Assembly (NCBI RefSeq): GCF_031200575.1
Contig: NZ_CP133597.1
Span: forward strand, 62,001 to 126,000
Length of the DNA stretch: 64,000 nt
Reading direction: 5' to 3'
From: Ferroplasma sp.
GTDB lineage: Archaea; Thermoplasmatota; Thermoplasmata; Thermoplasmatales; Thermoplasmataceae
Shown piece after piece: positions 16,684 through 29,491 of this stretch (position 1 is its first letter; each line of letters begins with the position of its first letter). The notes beneath the pieces were generated by a model. The model saw only the letters and a list, made by a program, of their open reading frames with translations. It was not told the DNA's origin and searched no databases. A program made the position numbers and the translations under genes.

Positions 16684-17550
16684 TTATATAAAAGGATATA
16701 TTATTATAACAAGCAAGAGGATCAATAGATACATATTAGAAAATCCGAATGCACTTCTGAAATATTTTTTGTTGTATTCCTTGAAAGCTGGTCTCGCCAC
16801 ATAGTATAGTAGTATAGCATCCATGATTACTGCTATAGGCAGATATGCAAGTCCAAGTTTAATTGCTGGTACCAGGAATGGTATAAGAGAATAAAACACA
16901 AGTATTACAGTGTTGACAATAATCCAGAATTCAGTTTTTTTAACACCGACCATTGCAGGCAGCATGGGCACCTTACTGGCTTTATAATCATCAACATTAT
17001 TAATTGAAAGATTCCAGAAGTGGGTTGGTGTCCACATAAATACAAGGAAGGCGAGAAATAGTGATGTAAGTGAAACCGAATTTGTTAGGGATGCCCATCC
17101 GGCGAGGGCAGGAAATCCACCTGCAATCCCTCCTATGACAATGTTAAGACTTGTCCTCCTTTTAAGGAATACGGTGTACAAAAATACATAACTAAGGAAC
17201 CCGCCGAAGATAAATAATGCCGTAAGTAAGTTTATAAATAAGGAACTGACTGCAAATGAAACAATTATCATAATAAGAGCAATTGAAAATATATAGCTTC
17301 TTGTGTGTTCATTTAGTGTGCCTGATCTGGACCTGGTCCTTTTCATCTTTGTATCTATATCCATATCGTAGATGTTATTGAATATGCTTGCTGACATGGA
17401 AGCCAAGGTTCCTGTCAGGATAAGCAGGAACAATAGAAAAGGATGAGAGAAACTGCCCGGTGCTAAAATAAAAGCTGTTACGGCAACTAAATCTATTAAA
17501 ATTGTGATTTCCAGTTTCGTTATTTTCATGAAATTTGTTAATTTACCCAT
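16684..17550 (-). CDS. ctaB: Protoheme IX farnesyltransferase (heme O synthase)
   Basis: UbiA-family prenyltransferase that adds farnesyl to heme B, giving heme O, the precursor of heme A for the oxidase. The 288-residue protein has about 8-9 membrane helices. The prenyl-diphosphate/Mg motif NNIYDMDIDTKMKRTRSR lies near residues 62-79, and a second loop has NNVDDYKASKVPML. Located in the oxidase operon 51 nt after subunit II, which fits a role in heme supply to that enzyme. Confidence 0.92.
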   Translation of the reverse strand: MGKLTNFMKITKLEITILIDLVAVTAFILAPGSFSHPFLLFLLILTGTLASMSASIFNNIYDMDIDTKMKRTRSRSGTLNEHTRSYIFSIALIMIIVSFAVSSLFINLLTALFIFGGFLSYVFLYTVFLKRRTSLNIVIGGIAGGFPALAGWASLTNSVSLTSLFLAFLVFMWTPTHFWNLSINNVDDYKASKVPMLPAMVGVKKTEFWIIVNTVILVFYSLIPFLVPAIKLGLAYLPIAVIMDAILLYYVARPAFKEYNKKYFRSAFGFSNMYLLILLLVIIIYPFI

Positions 17551-17601: not shown

Positions 17602-18438
17602 TTATGCACCAGCTGATGGTGGTGCAATTGTGCCATTATAGTAGTTGTTAGGCCCGTAGTTTTCAGAGTACCCGTCCATGTGGAATTTCTCAACCATCTC
17701 ACCATGGGTTGTGGTGTTTAACCAGCTTTCGTACTGTGTTTTTGGTAATACAAATGCCTGACCTCTCATATGGGCATGACCGAGTCCACATAGTTCAACA
17801 CACTCAAAGTGGAATTCCCCAGTTTCTGTAATATTAGTCCATATGTAATTATAATGTCCTGGAAAAGCGTCAACCTTCGTGACATTAATCAGATAGAACG
17901 AATGCATTACATCAACGCTGGTTACATTAAACTGAATTGGAGTGTCTGCTGGAAGTACAACAAAGTGCCTCGATGATGCACCATTGGGATATATGAAAAC
18001 CCACTGCCACTGATATCCGACTACATCAATATCCATGTAGTGATGAGCATCAGTAGGGGCTGATGGTGCTGCTCCTGCAACCCTGATCCCATATGCTGGC
18101 GGTAAATCATATACCAGTAAGGACAGCAATATGAGCACCACAAACAGAACGAATAGCTTGAAGATGGTTTTATTCCCACGTTCAAGGTTCTCTATCCTTC
18201 CTGGTCTCATATCTACATCCTTATTGTACTTTGAATTTTCAAAGTCATCAGCTTTTTTTGGCTTGTAACTTTTGAGAAATACATACACATACCATAGAGC
18301 AAAACCTGCCCCTATCAAAATACCAGGGACAATATATGCCAGGAATATGGATGTAATTTCGGCTCCCGTAATGGAACCTCTTGGTATCAGATGATACACA
18401 CTAGGTAAGATATTATATAGTTCTAACACTTTTTTCAC
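17602..18438 (-). CDS. coxB: Heme-copper oxidase subunit II with CuA site
   Basis: Takes electrons from a soluble or surface donor into the oxidase. The 278-residue protein has two N-terminal membrane helices (about 30-55 and 92-110) and an extracytoplasmic cupredoxin domain. All CuA ligands are present: H179, C213, E215, C217, H221 and M224 (CVELCGLGHAHM). A complete CuA marks a cytochrome c-type, not a quinol-type, oxidase; the donor here is most likely the sulfocyanin encoded just upstream in the operon. Confidence 0.93.
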   Translation of the reverse strand: MKKVLELYNILPSVYHLIPRGSITGAEITSIFLAYIVPGILIGAGFALWYVYVFLKSYKPKKADDFENSKYNKDVDMRPGRIENLERGNKTIFKLFVLFVVLILLSLLVYDLPPAYGIRVAGAAPSAPTDAHHYMDIDVVGYQWQWVFIYPNGASSRHFVVLPADTPIQFNVTSVDVMHSFYLINVTKVDAFPGHYNYIWTNITETGEFHFECVELCGLGHAHMRGQAFVLPKTQYESWLNTTTHGEMVEKFHMDGYSENYGPNNYYNGTIAPPSAGA

Positions 18439-18439
18439 C

Positions 18440-19054
18440 TTATTTTATTGTATAGTACGGTACATGAACCGAAGAGCTAACTATTACATATACATACATT
18501 CCAGCCTCGGCGTGGGTGGTTAATCCGCACACAGCCCAGTAGTGTCCTGGTTGTGTGTCGTTCCACCATATGGATCTGTAATGTGCAACATTACCATACC
18601 ATATAGGATCTATTGTACCTGTGCTAATTATGACTTTCTTTACGTGAACACTAGTATGTGCCCATATAGGTCCACGTGCCCACTGTGATGCATATGGAAG
18701 TTCGAATTTAAGTGTGTGCGGCTTAACCTCATAATCTGTCATATTCGCATGTATATCTGCATTCGCTGGTAGGTATATGGTCATAGCACCGTATGAGGTA
18801 CCGTTGAAATTAAATGGGTATGCATTAGGGTGCCCATTTCCCTGCCCCCAGGCTGCCAGTGAGAGATTCACTATTTGAACTGTTGTTCCATTAACAGTAG
18901 TATTATAGTATGGTATCGCCTTGTAGTTAACTTTGCCCTGGTCTGACATAACTGTATTCATTGGCTGATAAGTAGCAACTGTTATACCAATAGCCGCTAT
19001 AAGTACTATAGCTATCGCAAGTACTGCAAAAGCTGCCTTTGTAATCGGTTTCAA
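18440..19054 (-). CDS. Sulfocyanin-like blue copper protein
   Basis: Membrane-anchored type I copper protein. The 204-residue product has one N-terminal helix (about 6-28) and a cupredoxin domain. The ligand set is H113 (KPHTLKF), C176, H181 and M186 in the spacing C-x4-H-x4-M. The FNFNGTSYGAMTIYLP block matches the sulfocyanin family (SoxE of Sulfolobus and Ferroplasma homologues). It is encoded directly before CuA subunit II (1 nt gap), so it probably shuttles electrons to the oxidase at the acid-facing surface. A rusticyanin-like role in Fe(II) oxidation is possible. Confidence 0.88.
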   Translation of the reverse strand: MKPITKAAFAVLAIAIVLIAAIGITVATYQPMNTVMSDQGKVNYKAIPYYNTTVNGTTVQIVNLSLAAWGQGNGHPNAYPFNFNGTSYGAMTIYLPANADIHANMTDYEVKPHTLKFELPYASQWARGPIWAHTSVHVKKVIISTGTIDPIWYGNVAHYRSIWWNDTQPGHYWAVCGLTTHAEAGMYVYVIVSSSVHVPYYTIK

Positions 19055-19288: not shown

Positions 19289-21796
19289 TCATGCTATGAA
19301 TGCAACAGTGGTAAACACTGTTGTAAGGAATACAAACGCTACAAACCACATTATAACGTCTGCACTTGTTGCAGTTCTGCCCCAAAGGAACTTTTTGGAA
19401 TACTTGACCCTTATTGCATAGCCGATCATTACTGCTATCACACCTATTCCAAATAGCAGATCCATCAAAGATATAAGCCAGTACATAGAGGCTATAGGAT
19501 TGTTCGCTGTTGCCCCTCCAAGGCTTAAAGCAGAGTAAGAGTTTATGTTAAGCAGTGAAAGCAGAGATGTTATTATGAATATTATTCCAAACACAGACCC
19601 TACAGCCATATAGGTTGCACTCTTTCCAGGTGATTTTTTTATAGCGCCTGATAGTGATCCCCATGCGAGCAGTGCAGCTATTCCTATGGCAGCTATTGAG
19701 ATATATATGTAGACTGATGCAAGCGACGGGAAGAACCATGTGACTGGATCATTTCCTTCTACATACGGAGATACTGACTGAAGTTTTAACCACTCAACCA
19801 TTCCATAGAATGTGGCCATCCAGATCATATCACCAGCCAAGAATATCAGCATACCGAGCCTTGTGTTATTGAATCCCTTTGTTACCGGGTCTTTCTTATA
19901 TGTTGGAGGTACATTTGGCGATTTAAGTTTGTAATCATCATACATCCAACCAATGGTTCCAACCAGGAAGAGTGCAGCTGCAACTGCTACTATTGCATAT
20001 CCCAGATAAGCATAGAATATGCCGAATGCATATGGTTTGTATCCCATCATTGCGACTACTGCACCTATAAATCCTATTACCACGCCAAGAGCAATATATA
20101 ATGGTCTTGTAGATAATTCTACTTTGGGTGGTTTTATAGGTTTATTCTTATCCAGTAACAGGTCTCTGTTGTCCTCTCCGCCAACATATGGCTCATAGTC
20201 AAAATTGTAATACTTCGGTGGGTTTGTTGTGAACCAGACAAATCCTGCAGTGGCCTTATACGGATTCTGGTCTGTCAATGGCGCGTGTTTTTTCATCGAA
20301 TATGCAAAGTTTGCGAACATTATCAGGAAGGATAAACCGAATATAAATGCCCCAACTGTTGATATTTCATTGAATATAGTATAACCGAATCCAGACTGGT
20401 ATGTGTATACCCTCCTCGGTAAATCGTACAGGAAGAACATCGGGAAATACAGTGTGTTAACTCCTATGTACGCAATTGCCCAGTGTATTCTTCCAAGTGT
20501 TTCACTGTACATTTTGCCTGTGAACTTGGGGAAATAATAATACAGATTTCCCATAAGCCCCATTACGGCCACACCCACCATGAAATAATGGAAATGTGCA
20601 ACGACATAATAGTCTCCGTGAACGATAGTGTCTATAGCAAGTGAAGATTGTGTAACGCCTGTTATACCACCGATCATGAAGGATGTTGATGCTGCCAGTG
20701 CAAATAATATGGGCGTCTGGAACTTATGCTTTGCCCCAAGCAGTGTTGCTATCAATCCAACGATCAACATTCCGGTAGGTATGGATATGGTTTCTGTGAA
20801 TACACTGGTCGCCATTAACCATGCAAAGACTATACCGGTCATAAATGTGTGATGGAGGAAAACCATAACACTGTCAACTGATATTGCGCCCATTGCAGCT
20901 ATCATCCACTTCTTCAGATAGGGAGCCCTGTGACCTAAATTCGATAGATAATCAAACATTGCCCCGGTACCCGGTAATAGAAGTAAATATACCTCTGGAT
21001 GCCCAAAGTACCAGAACAGGTTTTCCCACATAAGGGCACCTCCATATGTTGAGATAAAGCCACTTAATCCCAGAAGGTTAGACACGACAAGAACGAAGAA
21101 TAGTGCACTTATTTCTGGGAATACAAACCACGATATCATTGCAACCCAGAGTATGGCCCACACGAATAATGGTAAGTTCATTAACCTAAAACCACGCGCC
21201 CTGGCCTTGAAGACAGTAGCTATAACCTCAGTTGATGCAATGATTGTACCAAGACCCCTCACCACCACTGCAGCAGCAGCTGTATCAGCCCCTATATATG
21301 GTGTAAACTTAAATGATGATAATGGCTGATAAACTGTCCATCCCGTGTCCAGATTTCCACCAGGGAGGAAGAATCCCATCCAGAGAAGTATGCCACTAAA
21401 TAAGTATAACCAGTAACCAAGGGCATTAATCCTCGGGTATATCATATCTCTAGAACCAATAGCAAGCGGTACCAAATAAATACCAAATCCAAAACCTAGT
21501 GGACCAAGGAACCATATTAGCATTGTAAGGCCATGTATGGTTACAAGCTGATTATACTGAAGTGCGTCCAGAAATCTTCCGGAGAATAGACCATAATGAA
21601 CAAGGTCATATCTCGGTATTGCCAGCTGTACTCTCATCAAGAGGGCCAGAACACCGCCACCTATAAAGAAAACCAGAGATGTCAGTATATACAGCAGTCC
21701 TATTTGTTTGTGATTTGTAGAGAAAATCCAGCCTCTGACTGAATTGTATATCTTGTTATTCTTTTCATATAATTCATCGTTACTACCGACTTCCAT
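19289..21796 (-). CDS. coxA: Heme-copper oxidase subunit I/III fusion
   Basis: Reduces O2 to water while pumping protons. Residues 1 to about 500 form subunit I with all cofactor ligands: H88 (heme a), H266-P-E-V-Y270 (CuB histidine, E268 and crosslinked tyrosine), H315-H316 (CuB), H401 (heme a3) and H403 (heme a). The E in HPEVY marks an A1-type oxidase. Residues from about 640 form a subunit III-like domain with FLAGDMIWMATFYGMVEWL and several helices. At 835 residues it matches known CoxA/CoxC fusions. It is the first gene of the oxidase operon and is preceded by a well-placed TATA box. Confidence 0.95.
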   Translation of the reverse strand: MEVGSNDELYEKNNKIYNSVRGWIFSTNHKQIGLLYILTSLVFFIGGGVLALLMRVQLAIPRYDLVHYGLFSGRFLDALQYNQLVTIHGLTMLIWFLGPLGFGFGIYLVPLAIGSRDMIYPRINALGYWLYLFSGILLWMGFFLPGGNLDTGWTVYQPLSSFKFTPYIGADTAAAAVVVRGLGTIIASTEVIATVFKARARGFRLMNLPLFVWAILWVAMISWFVFPEISALFFVLVVSNLLGLSGFISTYGGALMWENLFWYFGHPEVYLLLLPGTGAMFDYLSNLGHRAPYLKKWMIAAMGAISVDSVMVFLHHTFMTGIVFAWLMATSVFTETISIPTGMLIVGLIATLLGAKHKFQTPILFALAASTSFMIGGITGVTQSSLAIDTIVHGDYYVVAHFHYFMVGVAVMGLMGNLYYYFPKFTGKMYSETLGRIHWAIAYIGVNTLYFPMFFLYDLPRRVYTYQSGFGYTIFNEISTVGAFIFGLSFLIMFANFAYSMKKHAPLTDQNPYKATAGFVWFTTNPPKYYNFDYEPYVGGEDNRDLLLDKNKPIKPPKVELSTRPLYIALGVVIGFIGAVVAMMGYKPYAFGIFYAYLGYAIVAVAAALFLVGTIGWMYDDYKLKSPNVPPTYKKDPVTKGFNNTRLGMLIFLAGDMIWMATFYGMVEWLKLQSVSPYVEGNDPVTWFFPSLASVYIYISIAAIGIAALLAWGSLSGAIKKSPGKSATYMAVGSVFGIIFIITSLLSLLNINSYSALSLGGATANNPIASMYWLISLMDLLFGIGVIAVMIGYAIRVKYSKKFLWGRTATSADVIMWFVAFVFLTTVFTTVAFIA

Positions 21797-21823: not shown

Positions 21824-22290
21824 GAGTAATTATAGAATATTTTCGTAACTTATCCCTATATAAATTTAAAAACTTATCATATAATGCTATTTTCATTCAT
21901 AAATATGTTATATATCAACATATAATTAGATAAAACGCAATATATATGCATTTAACGTGGATGTAAGAAGTTCCCCCTCCATGACTGCAAGATAGGGTGT
22001 TAATGCCTGTAATCCATTTAGCTGTACTATATCGGTACGGTTCATCATGCTACAGTAAATATAGTCAAAAAAGAAGAGAGTAAAATCTTTACAGGACTTA
22101 TAATTTGACTCAGAAAGCCGGATAATCTAATAGAACTGAATATTAGGCACAGGCTCTGCCAAATTGATGCCATTAAGGAATAAATAATACAAGGATTAGG
22201 TTTATACACAAAAGCCAGAGAACATCTGCATTTGTCAGATGGAGCCCACAATACAAATCTCTAAATAACATTTTTAACTTATTGCTACAA
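21824..22290. other. Divergent intergenic region without a supported gene
   Basis: About 470 bp between the oxidase operon and the DUF929-like gene. A minus-strand open frame (22045-22251, 68 codons) is followed after its stop by a second short frame (21926-22048, 40 codons). Neither has a recognisable motif, a ribosome-binding site or a clear promoter. The overlapping short frames could be the remains of a decayed gene, but this cannot be shown from the sequence. Confidence 0.3.
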
Positions 22291-23052
22291 ATGAGCCAAA
22301 AAGAGCATTATAATAAAAAGTTACTGGCATTCTTTATAGCTTTTTTTATAGTTATAACTTTTCTTGCAGTTTACGGTGCTGAACATTATAACGGACATGA
22401 TGAAACAGTGGAGCTTGAACAATACTGCAAAATATCAGATAATGATCTGGTTAAAGGCAATACCAGTACATGTGTGTACTTCATAACATGGGATGGAAGC
22501 CCTACTGGTAATGCGGGATCCTGGGCATTATATGAATTTTTAAATGACCATGGATACAATATGGATAAAAACAATTATGTCAAAAACTCTCAATCCATGG
22601 AGAACTTTGAGTTTAACAATACCCCTGGAGTAATATTCAATAATTCTACATATACTTTAGATTATAGTGGGCACACAACTATAATTAAACCAGTATATAT
22701 TTATGGTGAGAACTTAACTAATAGTACTACAATAGCCGCGGGTCTACAAGAATTAAAAGGAAAGGTGCCTAGTGTGGTATATAAGGAGATTAAAATATAT
22801 ACAACAGAGGCGATAGTTGATGGGCTTAGCATACCAAGCGACAATATCAGTACGTATCATCATATTAATTCTGTTACGTTGATAAATGGACCTGCAGGAG
22901 CATATATTTTTAATGGATACCTTATAAACCCAACCAATTTTGAGGATGAGACACCGAAGCAGGTAATAACAGATTTAAAGGACAACCCATCTTATAAGCC
23001 AGTAAGAAATGCGGTCAAAGGTCTAGAAACATATATTAAGGATTCTGATTAA
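22291..23052 (+). CDS. Secreted/anchored thioredoxin-like protein, DUF929-like
   Basis: The 253-residue protein has an N-terminal membrane anchor (about 11-29, LLAFFIAFFIVITFLAVYGA) and an extracytoplasmic domain. The block VYFITWDGSPTGNAGSWALYEFL resembles the DUF929 family of Sulfolobales and Thermoplasmatales, which has a thioredoxin-like layout. Where relatives often carry a cysteine, this protein has SPTG, so a redox CxxC is absent. I start at ATG 22291; a TTG at 22282 is in frame. It faces away from the oxidase operon across a shared intergenic region. Function unknown. Confidence 0.7.
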   Translation: MSQKEHYNKKLLAFFIAFFIVITFLAVYGAEHYNGHDETVELEQYCKISDNDLVKGNTSTCVYFITWDGSPTGNAGSWALYEFLNDHGYNMDKNNYVKNSQSMENFEFNNTPGVIFNNSTYTLDYSGHTTIIKPVYIYGENLTNSTTIAAGLQELKGKVPSVVYKEIKIYTTEAIVDGLSIPSDNISTYHHINSVTLINGPAGAYIFNGYLINPTNFEDETPKQVITDLKDNPSYKPVRNAVKGLETYIKDSD

Positions 23053-24156: not shown

Positions 24157-25695
24157 TTATTTTTCAGCTGGCATAGCTATCTTAGAATTGTGATTTTTCA
24201 TAAGTATTGGTGTTTCTGGAATAGAATATCTATACATTGTATCTATTGTGCTAAGCCACATAAACGGAAGTGAGACCGCCCATAGAATTGCAGAGAAGTA
24301 AAGCTGCTGTTTAATTCCGAAGAATGGAAACATGTCTGTAAGTGATATAATTGATATGTAGAAAAATACTAGTGCAGTCATGCTGAACATCATGGAATTA
24401 AACTCTATATATGCAGCCTTTAGCTTTTCCAGGCTGAAATACACAAGATATGTCAGGATACCAGCGCCTATACCCATTATATTCATCATTATATAAATAT
24501 TATAATTAGAGTATGCATAATAGGCTAGTGAAGGCACGAACCATATAAACATCATAACGGATGCTATGGTTATTATAGCTGCCTTTACTTTTACAGTTTT
24601 TATGAAGGGTTTCATTCCTAATTTTGTTATGGCATACATGAGGAAAATACCAGAAATAAACATAAGTATATTTACCCCATAAAAGAATAGCATAGAGGTT
24701 TTTTGCAAATGGAAAAATATGCCAATCACTTCCAGAACTGGGATCAGCATAACAAAGAATATAGCCAGCAACGGAAAATAGTTACTGTTTCTCAAATTTT
24801 TGATTGAGGATACAAATTTTATTTTTGCTCTGCGATTAATAAAAACACTGAGCATAAAATTACTCAGAAGCAGCAACAGAATACTTTCAGAGAGTAATGT
24901 AGTGCTAATGACAGTGGCCACCACTGCAGCTACAGTGGGCAGTATAGCTGTAAGACCCTCGCACTGGCAGCTTAAGGCTGAAACACCGCCGCTTATAGCT
25001 GGAGTAACAAGATTTGTTGCCTGCTTTCTTGCCCGTGATTTTTTCCCCAGAATCCCGGTGTTTAAGTTCACAATGCTAAAAATAAGGAAGTAATTCTCAG
25101 TTAAAAGTGCTGCAAGTATTATATAAAGTATGATGGACTGCACCCCCATTGTAAAATATATATAATTAACACGCATTATAATACCATAGTAAAACAGGTA
25201 TGGAACCTTTGATGAAGAAAAATCTGCATATATGGAGTCAACAACTATTTTCGTAGGTTCCACCGGAACAGATATTACAAAAAATCTGGAAATAAGTAAC
25301 ATGATAAATAGAATTAATATGAATGCGGCCCCACGGTAAAACAATGGCTTGCTTTTTTTGAAATATAGGTTATCAATTATATCGGTGTAAAAAGCCAGCG
25401 TAAGCAGGATCATTATTTCCATTAGGGGATAGACTATGTAGGTAAAGAGTAGAACTATAAATGTAAATAACCCAATGAACATGAAATACAGATAAATTCT
25501 GTTTATTATTGAATTTCTCCTGAAAAAAACCAGAAGTGGCAATATTACATATGGTATTAACATGGCTATAAATTGGTATATAGAAGGATAGAGCCTGGAT
25601 GAAAACACCACGAATATTCCTGATATGGCGGAATAGATGAACAGATATAAGGTAAATACTGAAATTATTATACTTTCTACTGCTTCTCGCTTCAT
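24157..25695 (-). CDS. Polytopic membrane protein with S-C-Q-C-E-G motif, unknown function
   Basis: 512 residues with roughly 13-14 hydrophobic helices. The one strikingly polar, conserved-looking element is the segment TPAISGGVSALSCQCEG at residues 231-247, with C243 and C245 at a helix boundary, followed by LTAILPTVAAVVATVIS. A basic stretch (GKKSRARKQ, 217-225) precedes it, so the motif probably lies near the cytoplasmic face. A CxC pair can bind Cu(I) or Fe-S intermediates, but no family is recognised. It is divergent from the Fe-S membrane protein gene, sharing a 91-bp promoter region. Confidence 0.75.
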   Translation of the reverse strand: MKREAVESIIISVFTLYLFIYSAISGIFVVFSSRLYPSIYQFIAMLIPYVILPLLVFFRRNSIINRIYLYFMFIGLFTFIVLLFTYIVYPLMEIMILLTLAFYTDIIDNLYFKKSKPLFYRGAAFILILFIMLLISRFFVISVPVEPTKIVVDSIYADFSSSKVPYLFYYGIIMRVNYIYFTMGVQSIILYIILAALLTENYFLIFSIVNLNTGILGKKSRARKQATNLVTPAISGGVSALSCQCEGLTAILPTVAAVVATVISTTLLSESILLLLLSNFMLSVFINRRAKIKFVSSIKNLRNSNYFPLLAIFFVMLIPVLEVIGIFFHLQKTSMLFFYGVNILMFISGIFLMYAITKLGMKPFIKTVKVKAAIITIASVMMFIWFVPSLAYYAYSNYNIYIMMNIMGIGAGILTYLVYFSLEKLKAAYIEFNSMMFSMTALVFFYISIISLTDMFPFFGIKQQLYFSAILWAVSLPFMWLSTIDTMYRYSIPETPILMKNHNSKIAMPAEK

Positions 25696-25786
25696 TATAA
25701 TTTGATTATTTCTAAGTAAGGATAAGTTTAATTATAGAACAATATCTACAATTAACTAATAATAAAATTGTTTAATCGAGAATCAC

Positions 25787-28000
25787 ATGCTTGATATTGT
25801 GTTTTTAATAGGTATCATAACAATTATAGTTATGGTAACGTATATCATTTTTGTATTTTCATACCTAATCAGGCATAAATATGACATATCATTTTTAAAG
25901 GTGGCCGCCATCGGAATATTTACTGCAATGATGGCCAGCATGCTTGATGCATTCCTGCTTTACATAACAACAGTACATGATTTCATTGATACAGCACTGG
26001 CATTTTCATTTGGTATGATTTTAATGTCACAGCCAATAGTGGCAACCTTCGTGGGAGTGATGCATGGTGGACTGGACAGGAAAGGTTTAACCAGGGCAAA
26101 TGCCACAGCGTTCACGGGGCTAATTATATGGAACGAGGTGTCCATGGGACTATTTCTATTCTATTTATTTAACCCTACCATAATACATTTTGATTACTAT
26201 CACGCTTTCTATTCCCTTGATTTTGTTTCAGATCTGAGTAATGGAATAAATACAATATATTTCCTTGTACCCATGAGTGTGGAAATGTTCTTCCTTTATC
26301 TGGTTTATAAACCGAAGGGGATGCATAAATACGCTTCAATTTCTATATTTACCATGGACCTATTTGCGCCTACCCTGCTTGGAAACAATACGTTCGTATT
26401 CATAGGTGGTGTTGGAGAAACTGCAGTAATGATAATATTTATGATTATATTCTTTGAATACATAGCAAAACACAGGTTAATGCTGCCGGAGGATGATGCT
26501 TACCATATAAAAATGATTTTTATCGATTACCTGTTAATGGGTGCCGGAACGTTTATCGGTACTTTACTTTTAGATCCATTTGGCCTTGCCTGGATATTTT
26601 TTGCAATGGCGATCATATTTGGGATGATATATTACTTCCAGAGTATGTTCTCAATAAAGAAACCAAAAGTTGAGGAAAAAACTAGTAATAATGTGGTAGT
26701 GAAACGGAAGAAAATAGTAAACAAACCTGCAAGACTAATATTCTTCGTTCTTGTTGCTTCCTTTGTTTCTGAGCTTTTTATGGCCGGTTCTATGGATTTT
26801 GCCACATATAATTATTTACCATTTTTCCGCGTGATTGATACCCTGCCAGTTTATCATGGAGCCAGTGTGGCAGGTTTCTACGCCCAAGATGTTTTAAAAG
26901 AGTTTGTATCGCCTTTTGTTCCAGCAAGCACCGGGCCGTATAATTTAATTATTTTTTACGGGATGGTTGGAGGCGTATACAAATTTACACCGGTTTCAAC
27001 ATTTATAGAAATTCTTTATATAATAGGGTACATAACAGATTCGCCAACATTTCTTTTGATAATGGGAATAGAGATGATAACTCTAGTTGTGGCACAGATA
27101 CGTATATTGAAGGACAGGGGAAAAAAGATCAATTTGATGTTCGCGATTGCGGCCTATCTCCTTTATACAACTATAGGCCCTAATTTTCTGAATCCCTTAT
27201 ATTATAACCGGCTTCCTTTCTGGGCAAATACTGGTGCACAGGCAGCACTTTATCCATATCTCGTTCTCCCGCTCCTTGGGTCTTATGCATTATATGCACT
27301 TCTTGCCCTGCTTTTTGGCAGGAGGTCTTATTGCTCAACACTGTGCCCATCGGCAGTGATGTACGGCGGAACTCTTGGTCAGTCCATGATAAAATATAAT
27401 TACGAGTCCAAAGTAAGCAGGAAACAGAGAACAAGTTATTTCACGGATTCTGTCCTGTTTATAGCTACGGGTTCATGGATTTGGGCAATACTTGCCTCTT
27501 TATTTTCATATATGTATACAACTACAGGAAGCTTGAGGTTTAGCATTTATGGAATTGACCCCTCAGTTTTCTATTCATATTTCATATGGAATCTTTTATG
27601 GTACGTTTTCTTTTTCTCCATACCGTTTGTAGGCATGAGCCCGTGCAGAAAATATGGATGGTGCTCAACCGGAACTCTTGTAGGATTTTTCAGTGTTCTG
27701 GGATTTTTCAAGCTCAAGGTAAAGGACAAAAATGTGTGCAGAACATGTGAGACAAAGGAGTGTGCAACATCATGTGAGGTTGGTTTATCCACAATGCCTG
27801 GCTCTTTTATCAAAAGTGGCCAGTTCAAAAGCGTAAAATGTGTGGGTTCTGGAGATTGCATAAGGGCATGCCCCTATGGGAATATTTATTTTTATGATGT
27901 GAGGAATTATCTACGCGAAAAATTGGGACATAAGAATAAAGAATTAAATAATGATGGAGAATTCGTAATGGTGAAAAAAAACACAGAACTTAAAAAGTAA
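25787..28000 (+). CDS. Polytopic membrane protein with NapH/CcoG-like 4Fe-4S domains
   Basis: 737 residues. Residues 1-290 and 315-510 form about 14 membrane helices. A NapH/NosR/CcoG-type block GRRSYCSTLCP (C516, C520) is followed by two more helices, then C620-x5-C626. A C-terminal ferredoxin-like domain has C651-x2-C654-x4-C659-x3-C663 and C685-x5-C691-x3-C695-P. NapH and NosR move electrons across the membrane; CcoG reduces copper during oxidase assembly. The long N-terminal membrane region is not usual for these families. It is 12 nt upstream of the CtaA-like gene, so it likely works with it. Exact role unknown. Confidence 0.8.
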   Translation: MLDIVFLIGIITIIVMVTYIIFVFSYLIRHKYDISFLKVAAIGIFTAMMASMLDAFLLYITTVHDFIDTALAFSFGMILMSQPIVATFVGVMHGGLDRKGLTRANATAFTGLIIWNEVSMGLFLFYLFNPTIIHFDYYHAFYSLDFVSDLSNGINTIYFLVPMSVEMFFLYLVYKPKGMHKYASISIFTMDLFAPTLLGNNTFVFIGGVGETAVMIIFMIIFFEYIAKHRLMLPEDDAYHIKMIFIDYLLMGAGTFIGTLLLDPFGLAWIFFAMAIIFGMIYYFQSMFSIKKPKVEEKTSNNVVVKRKKIVNKPARLIFFVLVASFVSELFMAGSMDFATYNYLPFFRVIDTLPVYHGASVAGFYAQDVLKEFVSPFVPASTGPYNLIIFYGMVGGVYKFTPVSTFIEILYIIGYITDSPTFLLIMGIEMITLVVAQIRILKDRGKKINLMFAIAAYLLYTTIGPNFLNPLYYNRLPFWANTGAQAALYPYLVLPLLGSYALYALLALLFGRRSYCSTLCPSAVMYGGTLGQSMIKYNYESKVSRKQRTSYFTDSVLFIATGSWIWAILASLFSYMYTTTGSLRFSIYGIDPSVFYSYFIWNLLWYVFFFSIPFVGMSPCRKYGWCSTGTLVGFFSVLGFFKLKVKDKNVCRTCETKECATSCEVGLSTMPGSFIKSGQFKSVKCVGSGDCIRACPYGNIYFYDVRNYLREKLGHKNKELNNDGEFVMVKKNTELKK

Positions 28001-28012
28001 ACGGTGAAATGA

Positions 28013-28789
28013 ATGAATGTTATTTTGTATTATTATTTTGTATTCCAGGTGATTCTTGCTTTTGGAATAGTAGTAGTTGGCGGGACTGTTGAAGGATATG
28101 GGTATGGACTATCCCTGGGAACAAAATGGCCATATACCAAGGATATGCCATTGAAGGCAAAAGCGGGTGACCCGGAGGTCTGGCATAGAATACTGGCTAC
28201 ATTACTTGGCATAAATGCGGTAATAATGGTAGTTTTAATACACGGTTCCCTGGAAATAACAGGTTTAATTCTTGTAGTTATAACCGCACTTCTTGGCATG
28301 GCCACATTATACACCCTGGCCGGAAAAGCACCATCAGTAGTCCAGGGTTTACATGATATTCTGGCCTATTCGACTGCCCTTACCTATCTTTTAATTGTTT
28401 ACCCTGTGGCTGGAAATGTTCTCGCTTTGATATATCATAATATACCACTATACTTTTTCTTTGCAGTCATATATATGGGTGGTATGACAACAGGGGAAAG
28501 GGGGTACCAGAAGGCTATTGGATACTTCAAAATACCAAAAACAAAGGCACAGTGGATATGGACAATACATGGACTGGCAGTACTGCTATTTCTATTCTCA
28601 CTTATATTATTCTTCTTCGATTACAATGTAGCCCTCATAATAATCGGTTTCCAGATCATTGTGGGAATAATAGTATTCATTTCTGTCAACAAATCAGCAT
28701 CAAGACCGGGATTCATAGTGCCAATGCATCAGTTTTTCACCATACTCATTGTACTCTCCATAGTATTCCAGTTAAGTGTTTTCAGATAA
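28013..28789 (+). CDS. ctaA: CtaA/COX15-like protein (putative heme A synthase)
   Basis: Predicted to oxidise the heme O methyl to give heme A. The 258-residue protein has eight helices in two pseudo-repeats. Each of helices 2, 4, 6 and 8 carries one histidine in the CtaA positions: W-H58-R, GLH114DILA, TIH186GLAVLLF and PMH239QFF. Helix 1 VVVGGTVEGYGYGLSLGTKWP and helix 5 GGMTTGERG match the 'GG...tgaG' turns of CtaA. It is shorter than bacterial CtaA (about 300) and divergent, so annotation by simple search may miss it. CtaB is encoded about 11 kb away in the oxidase operon. Confidence 0.72.
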   Translation: MNVILYYYFVFQVILAFGIVVVGGTVEGYGYGLSLGTKWPYTKDMPLKAKAGDPEVWHRILATLLGINAVIMVVLIHGSLEITGLILVVITALLGMATLYTLAGKAPSVVQGLHDILAYSTALTYLLIVYPVAGNVLALIYHNIPLYFFFAVIYMGGMTTGERGYQKAIGYFKIPKTKAQWIWTIHGLAVLLFLFSLILFFFDYNVALIIIGFQIIVGIIVFISVNKSASRPGFIVPMHQFFTILIVLSIVFQLSVFR

Positions 28790-28864: not shown

Positions 28865-29491
28865 TTATTTTATTGTTTTTTGTATAACCTGCCTCAACTG
28901 GCGCCTCAAAAGAAGGTCAAGAGTTGTTGGGGGTATATCCAGTGTTGAAGAAAGTTCCTTAAGCCCGATTTTTTTGGGTACATCGAAATATCCCCGCTCA
29001 AATGCCTCTTTCAGTATATATTCAGATTTAACATTGATGTGCCTTCCATTATATATTCTTATATTGCTGTCCTTGATATCATACACCTCTTTCAATGATT
29101 CATCTATGTGCCTTATTTTATTATAGTTATTGACATTCATCTCCCAGAATATATTTCCAGAGTAGTCTATCCTTTCTAATTTTATTTTATTTGAAGGGCT
29201 CATAAGTTTGCGCCTCATGAGTTCAACCAGGGGGCAGCTCTTTGTTAAAACGCTAACTGTTACACAGTTGTTCTCCCTTCCAATTATCTCAATTTCATAA
29301 GAGTGTGGGTAATTTTCCAGGTATTCAATAGATTTATCCAGAAGGTCTTCTGACTCCGCATATATAGCCAGTGTTTCGTAAACGTAATTATCACGCAGTT
29401 CCTGATTTACAATCTTAATTCGCACATTATAATCGCTTATCAGCTGTGATGCGAAACATTTTTCATATTTAAATGAGTACAGTATCTGCAT
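28865..29491 (-). CDS. HTH_10 (bacterio-opsin activator-like) transcription regulator
   Basis: 208 residues. The C-terminal 50 residues form the HTH_10 domain: ILKEAFERGYFDVPKKIGL, then KELSSTLDIPPTTLDLLLRR, with the typical 'GYFdvPr' and 'LrR' landmarks. The N-terminal 150 residues are an input domain without recognised PAS or GAF motifs; it holds cysteines (YEKCFAS, KSCPL) that might sense redox or metal. It is convergent with the ctaA-like gene and could regulate the adjacent oxidase-related genes; this is inference. Confidence 0.85.
   Translation of the reverse strand: MQILYSFKYEKCFASQLISDYNVRIKIVNQELRDNYVYETLAIYAESEDLLDKSIEYLENYPHSYEIEIIGRENNCVTVSVLTKSCPLVELMRRKLMSPSNKIKLERIDYSGNIFWEMNVNNYNKIRHIDESLKEVYDIKDSNIRIYNGRHINVKSEYILKEAFERGYFDVPKKIGLKELSSTLDIPPTTLDLLLRRQLRQVIQKTIK

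Follow-up and report, generated by a model that had tools for sequence, protein, structure and literature searches.

The window analysed here is a 64,000-nucleotide stretch (contig positions 62001-126000) of a Thermoplasmatales genome of 1.86 Mb, with Ferroplasma and Acidiplasma as the closest named relatives in a peptide-pattern scan. The three open reading frames singled out in a first-pass annotation of this DNA were all recovered where it had placed them, coding for proteins of 512, 737 and 258 amino acids. The 512-aa gene (24157..25695, minus strand) diverges from the 737-aa gene (25787..28000, plus strand) across an A+T-rich gap of 91 bases, and the latter is followed in tandem, with 12 bases in between, by the 258-aa gene (28013..28789, plus strand). 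The vicinity of cox genes and ctaB, noted previously at 3-8 kb, was also confirmed, the distances being 2.4-7.5 kb. These neighbours, all on the minus strand, are the heme O synthase CtaB (16684..17550; TIGR01473, score above cut-off) and three context genes, coding for CoxB with its CuA domain (17602..18438; Pfam/NCBIfam search), the sulfocyanin SoxE (18440..19054) and CoxA (19289..21796), which is of COX1-COX3 length and belongs to the oxidase of this cluster. A DUF929 protein encoded between coxA and the 512-aa gene (22282-23052, plus strand) is kept in Ferroplasma, Acidiplasma and the g29 genus, and could be an extracytoplasmic partner. On the other side, a gene for an HTH_10 (Bat-like) regulator with two conserved Cys (28865..29491, minus strand) adjoins the module. 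Such regulators hold this place in Ferroplasma and Acidiplasma and adjoin CuA-like loci in Thermoplasma and others (relatives: L083 6471-7100, L085 13925-14554, L067 6437-7054 and L182 8950-9579); they are candidate metal or redox sensors.

The 258-aa protein was assessed from its sequence, structure models being those of the 512-aa and 737-aa proteins. Searches of Pfam and NCBIfam gave no CtaA call, the cut-off of PF02628 not being reached, and a PDB profile search with the family found no relative. Comparison of its profile with that of archaeal half-size CtaA using hhalign gave a probability of 89.6% (E 1.9e-6), whereas ten control comparisons gave at most 1.5%. Full-size CtaA from elsewhere in the phylum, outside this class, aligned weakly over the same region, the Poseidonia-type full CtaA scoring 12%. 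Four His residues with CtaA-like spacing (H58, H114, H186 and H239) and the acidic E27 of the first outer loop were invariant in 11 sequences. The earlier label of a CtaA-like gene is thus upheld by profile-profile comparison and the four invariant His. The protein contains no Cys, so that neither loop 1 nor loop 3 has a Cys pair, in keeping with the type 0 heme A synthases (PMC8239418 Table 1). Type 0 CtaA has been listed for Thermoplasmatales by Degli Esposti et al. (PMC8239418); according to a 2026 survey its identity is low and its activity has never been measured (PMC12808453). We found no differences between the 258-aa protein and this type (class D), with which it shares the lack of Cys, the invariant His and the occurrence in Thermoplasmatales. 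Those carriers of the CtaA-like gene that have a full-length COX1 all have the long (about 820-860 aa) COX1-COX3 form, the remaining typical COX1 genes being open frames of about 470-600 aa. Since its traits match the published type 0 and it tracks COX1-COX3, the protein belongs to an already known, oxidase-type-specific kind. It is probably a separate heme A synthase dedicated to this oxidase type, its activity being predicted, and is probably co-transcribed in this lineage. A half-size CtaA in other genera was represented by a single weak candidate (G023:C22).

The 512-aa protein, a member of what we term the CQCE family (fam1), has 14 hydrophobic segments, and its predicted model (mean pLDDT 80.7) contains about 14 membrane helices and a small outer part with strands around residues 139-183. 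Loop charge alternates cleanly throughout the protein, which places both of its ends inside. These results bear out the initial description of a 13-14-helix protein with a CxC motif. The motif is CQCE, at residues 243-246 (24958..24969, minus strand), and is located by alignment and model within a predicted membrane helix (residues 230-257). It was invariant in 31/31 aligned relatives and forms part of the nine invariant columns of the family (M1, N201, I205, C243-Q244-C245-E246, P477 and W480; 31 sequences). Based on conservation, model and loop charge, we regard the protein as a candidate Cu(I)-handling factor. The family had no relatives in Pfam, NCBIfam or the PDB, a weak DUF1404-like stretch aside, and a PDB fold search with the model returned nothing at E < 0.5. 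An identity with DUF1404 was rejected: the match appeared in two of 31 members, in the same region of the C-terminal third, with E values of 4.5e-5 and 2.5e-4 that were below cut-off, and no mention of DUF1404 was found in the literature searched. Outside the order, no member was present in any genome sampled from the rest of the phylum, and two restrictive peptide patterns scanned against 84,980 species gave matches in Thermoplasmata only. The family is unnamed; it and the 737-aa protein are the new part of this work. In genome G017 (CP009479 ASS_A1) a CtaB (L076 12704-14455) carries a fused N-terminal membrane domain of 285 aa that has an SCPTC motif and belongs to no Pfam family; its columns align with the CQCE family with a P of only 0.02, which is not significant, and we do not claim it as a relative.

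The 737-aa protein (fam0) combines a Met/Glu-rich membrane domain with a NapH-like cytoplasmic Fe-S module and is a candidate cupric reductase. Its earlier description as a polytopic Fe-S protein stands, with about 15 membrane helices and a NapH-like C-terminal region holding 11 Cys. Eleven Cys are conserved at ≥90% in the family, and since all of these fall in positively charged loops they are predicted to be cytoplasmic. Two motifs, C516-x3-C520 (YCSTLCP; 27332..27346, plus strand) and C620-x5-C626 (27644..27664, plus strand), have both Cys invariant in 25 sequences, and loop charge likewise puts each on the cytoplasmic side. They are followed by a ferredoxin-like stretch (27737..27871, plus strand) with the motifs C651-x2-C654-x4-C659-x3-C663 and C685-x5-C691-x3-C695; the second has three Cys, one of the four usual ligands being absent, and the extra CxxxC and CxxxxxC motifs could complete another cluster. 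TIGR02163 (NapH) matched residues 495-697 with an E value of 2.2e-10 and 40.5 bits against a cut-off of 213, and similar matches, far under the cut-off, were seen in 20-21 of 25 family members. The suggestion of a CcoG-like protein fared unevenly: the Fe-S features are compatible with a CcoG-like reductase, but the CcoG/RdxA/FixG model was not among the family matches at E values up to 1, nor was it across the 25 members. Met is strongly over-represented among the conserved columns of the family (15 of 86, p = 6.6e-8) and Glu modestly so; His is absent from these columns, so that none is left to bind heme. Motifs of the Met/Glu helices recur between the N-domain and the middle part of the protein (hhalign, 74-85%). 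The predicted model has a pLDDT of 69; a PDB fold search with it gave nothing at E < 0.5, and a PDB profile search with the family found ferredoxin domains only. A second subfamily, which forms its own clade and is unlinked to respiratory genes, usually lies beside a separate copy of the N-domain, a membrane domain of 280-330 aa (L053 5956-8829, L056 8601-11514, L063 2500-5354 and L092 8283-11166).

The first-pass annotation had joined the three genes into one system, in which the Fe-S protein would feed electrons to CtaA for heme A synthesis while the oxidase copper sites are matured. In favour of this reading, the 737-aa and 258-aa genes lie only 12 bases apart in this lineage, cox and ctaB genes are near, and mitochondrial Cox15 uses ferredoxin. 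The expected co-occurrence of the trio was not seen: of the order's 117 genomes, 14 carry the CtaA-like gene, 89 have a member of the 512 family and about 83 have one of the 737 family. The CtaA-like gene tracks the COX1-COX3 fusion only and is missing from about 70 genomes that have the 737 family; it is thus far rarer than the pair, so heme A is not what the pair generally serves. Thermoplasma, which has both families without a heme-copper oxidase, also speaks against a single system. The annotation had further predicted that the genes would be absent where there is no heme-copper oxidase. For the 737 family this failed, as five COX1-less Thermoplasma carry a homologue of the cox-linked clade beside a 512 paralogue. 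As regards the 512 family, only a paralogue goes against the prediction: the cox-type protein is missing from Thermoplasma, whose sole 512 members belong to the CuA-linked clade. One system for heme A and copper is therefore refuted as the general function, leaving a lineage-specific role at most, and we consider it very improbable. What survives of the proposal is the link of the 512 and 737 families to copper-containing respiratory complexes across the order.

The genus labelled g6 in our survey we take to be Thermoplasma, with G102 as T. acidophilum and G105 as T. volcanium. No COX1 was found in its five species, whose genomes are 98-99% complete, and T. acidophilum and T. volcanium have a bd oxidase (PMC3750248). 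In a tree of 46 members of the 512 family, all CuA-linked ones, from two families of the order, fell into one clade with 99/99 support; this clade also includes three unlinked or cytochrome-b-linked members, while cox-linked members lie outside. The CuA-linked paralogue clade is ancient. Cox-linked and Thermoplasma 737 proteins formed one clade against the unlinked subfamily, with a support of 100. These tree positions show that Thermoplasma has the 737 partner and a CuA-type 512 paralogue without a heme-copper oxidase. In G102 the 737-family gene (L084 7661-9582) consists of two overlapping frames, unlike its relatives.

Among 51 near-complete genomes of the order, the 512 family was found in 36, namely 31 with COX1 and the five Thermoplasma with a CuA-like cupredoxin. 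Its presence coincides exactly with that of COX1 or the CuA-like cupredoxin (36/36 genomes with, 0/15 without). These genomes are not phylogenetically independent: co-occurrence goes with taxonomic family, which leaves few effective events. The 737 family was present in 35 of the 36, G088 being the genome without it. Cytochrome b is encoded in three of the 15 genomes negative for the 512 family, which therefore does not track cytochrome b. In most lineages the 512-family gene is part of the cox operon. In many genera the gene order is small-cox, CoxB, CoxA, cupredoxin, CtaB, 512-family and CPBP-like, often with an adjoining 737-family gene; elsewhere a second 512 paralogue adjoins the CuA-like cupredoxin, usually with Rieske and cytochrome b, and in L067 and L078 without neighbouring Rieske/cytochrome b. 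The cupredoxin has an invariant H, C-x3-C and M, W replacing the second His (alignment A8). It adjoins Rieske/cytochrome b (L085 9069-9785 and relatives) in genomes with and without a heme-copper oxidase. The two settings of the 512 family have in common a copper centre at the outer face; heme A is not shared, and a heme-copper oxidase is not present in every case. Several genomes in the survey are incomplete. In G003, from the genus of the window, and G066, from g27, both rated 91-96% complete, neither COX1 nor the CtaA-like gene nor either family is present; a contig could be missing, or the entire cluster, described in the literature as a genomic island, could have been lost. In the genera g3 and g12 (L166-L169, L057) the 512 family lies away from cox genes and has constant neighbours, which reading of their sequences suggests to be DUF211-like, VIT-like membrane, AAA and TenA/PqqC-like proteins.

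We therefore propose, with a probability of roughly 0.4, that the 737-aa and 512-aa proteins are a copper-maturation pair for the copper-containing respiratory complexes of the Thermoplasmatales, with the 258-aa protein as a separate heme A synthase. The single heme A and copper module is unsupported; the co-occurrence, the linkage and the paralogues support a role of the pair in copper and oxidase biogenesis, and the combination of CQCE, Met-lined helices and cytoplasmic Fe-S clusters would fit Cu(II) reduction and Cu(I) handling by analogy. The linkage speaks for this proposal in that 77 of 108 members of the 512 family lie ≤8 kb from COX1 or a CuA-like gene. Counting against it, the other 31 are unlinked, those of g3 and g12 almost without exception, many genomes carry only the unlinked 737 subfamily, neither model has a significant match in the PDB, and the best family match of the 737-aa protein is NapH (quinol to Fe-S) rather than CcoG. 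Elsewhere in the phylum, genomes with heme-copper oxidase assembly genes lack the 512 family, so copper insertion does not in general require it. In favour of the pair, a search for SCO1 copper chaperones gave no convincing hit; this is weak evidence, 52 genomes having marginal matches.

The genes, motifs, conservation, topology trend, linkage, co-occurrence and paralogue clades behind this proposal were read from sequence; from them we infer the direction of the electrons, copper as the cargo, the contact between the 737-aa and 512-aa proteins and the steps of transfer. Electrons would enter the 737-aa protein via its cytoplasmic ferredoxin-like clusters and pass to the CxxxC/CxxxxxC site at its membrane face. 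Copper may then be kept as Cu(I) in the membrane domain, lined by conserved Met and Glu, from which the 512-aa protein would take it at the intramembrane CQCE site and hand it to CuA/CuB or cupredoxin sites at the outer face, each target complex presumably having its own dedicated 512 paralogue.

The strongest rival to the copper pair is direct electron transfer to cupredoxin. The pair would then be part of an electron-transfer chain resembling alternative complex III, the NapH-like protein taking electrons from quinol or ferredoxin and, together with the CQCE protein, delivering them to cupredoxin/CuA. The best family match, to the NapH/MauN ferredoxins of quinol dehydrogenases, is in line with this, as are the usual position of the pair beside copper electron carriers and the presence of one paralogue per complex. 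A gene cluster of the same kind, which the first-pass annotation had taken to be unassigned, has moreover already been published as an iron-oxidation cluster (PMC12524180). The Fig. 4 legend of that study names COX15, Fd, coxAC, coxB, CyoE, SoxE and hypotheticals in Acidiplasma, Ferroplasma and Picrophilus, and its "sulfocyanin cluster" (Fd, COX15, hypothetical) is taken as the iron-oxidation cluster. The gene set is of the same kind as at the present locus, read there as an iron-oxidation chain, and the main text contains no analysis of the two uncharacterised membrane proteins. Picrophilus has the cluster yet does not oxidise iron, and in Acidiplasma the whole cluster was reported to be expressed more strongly with sulfur than with iron (PMC12524180). 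This expression pattern speaks against a role confined to iron oxidation, without thereby identifying the function. Electron transfer is also at odds with the Fe-S motifs, all predicted to be cytoplasmic and away from the outer-face cupredoxins, and with the want of a conserved His in the 737 family for a heme wire. Most genomes also have a Rieske/cytochrome b complex, and an 850-kDa complex of F. acidiphilum was described as oxidase plus sulfocyanin (PMC8280799). We consider direct electron transfer somewhat unlikely.

A still less probable reading gives the pair a general role in the membrane, in the assembly or quality control of respiratory complexes (heme b/o insertion, disulfide or lipid handling), with copper incidental. 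Target clusters do hold heme proteins (COX1, cytochrome b) besides copper proteins, and their regular neighbours include CtaB and a membrane protein of the CPBP type. Against this, the CuA-like cupredoxin is the only such target beside the 512 family in L067 and L078, there are genomes with cytochrome b, but with neither COX1 nor a CuA-like cupredoxin, that lack the pair, and the Met enrichment and CQCE suggest a soft metal.

Read as a copper-maturation pair, the two proteins bear on the loading of archaeal CuA, CuB and blue-copper sites with copper at a pH of about 1, and their presence wherever the order has such copper proteins offers two defined proteins and one motif to test. Thermoplasma is a natural system in which the copper role can be told apart from heme A and the heme-copper oxidase, and the analysis corrects the view, probably mistaken, that the Fe-S protein serves primarily to donate electrons to heme A synthase. 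It is possible, although we would lean against it, that the pair is a new archaeal copper-loading machine, comprising the first archaeal membrane-bound Fe-S cupric reductase and CQCE-type intramembrane Cu(I) carriers, with paralogues for the heme-copper oxidase and for the CuA-like/Rieske-cytochrome b chain, the latter kept in the oxidase-less Thermoplasma. In a 2020 review the sole named archaeal cupric reductase was the cytosolic CopZ of Archaeoglobus (PMC7558416).

In bacteria, Cu(II) reduction and Cu(I) handling are carried out by CcoG and CcoA, and CcoG homologues occur also in genomes without an oxidase (PMC7558416). Like CcoG (RdxA/FixG), the 737-aa protein is polytopic, has Fe-S clusters and is encoded with an oxidase; it differs in having no C-terminal domain past the ferredoxin part, in its long extra Met/Glu-rich membrane domain, in a cluster motif with three Cys instead of four and in the missing match to the CcoG model. 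Its residues 495-697 align with NapH/MauN (TIGR02163), with which it has in common the CxxxCP that follows a membrane helix and a ferredoxin domain at the C terminus, but it has about 480 extra N-terminal residues and a context of oxidase and cupredoxin genes rather than of nitrate or methylamine respiration. The 512-aa protein resembles CcoA, the MFS copper importer of cbb3 biogenesis, by analogy only, as a putative polytopic copper-handling protein partnered by a membrane Fe-S reductase; its family has no MFS match and carries CQCE in place of Met/His motifs.
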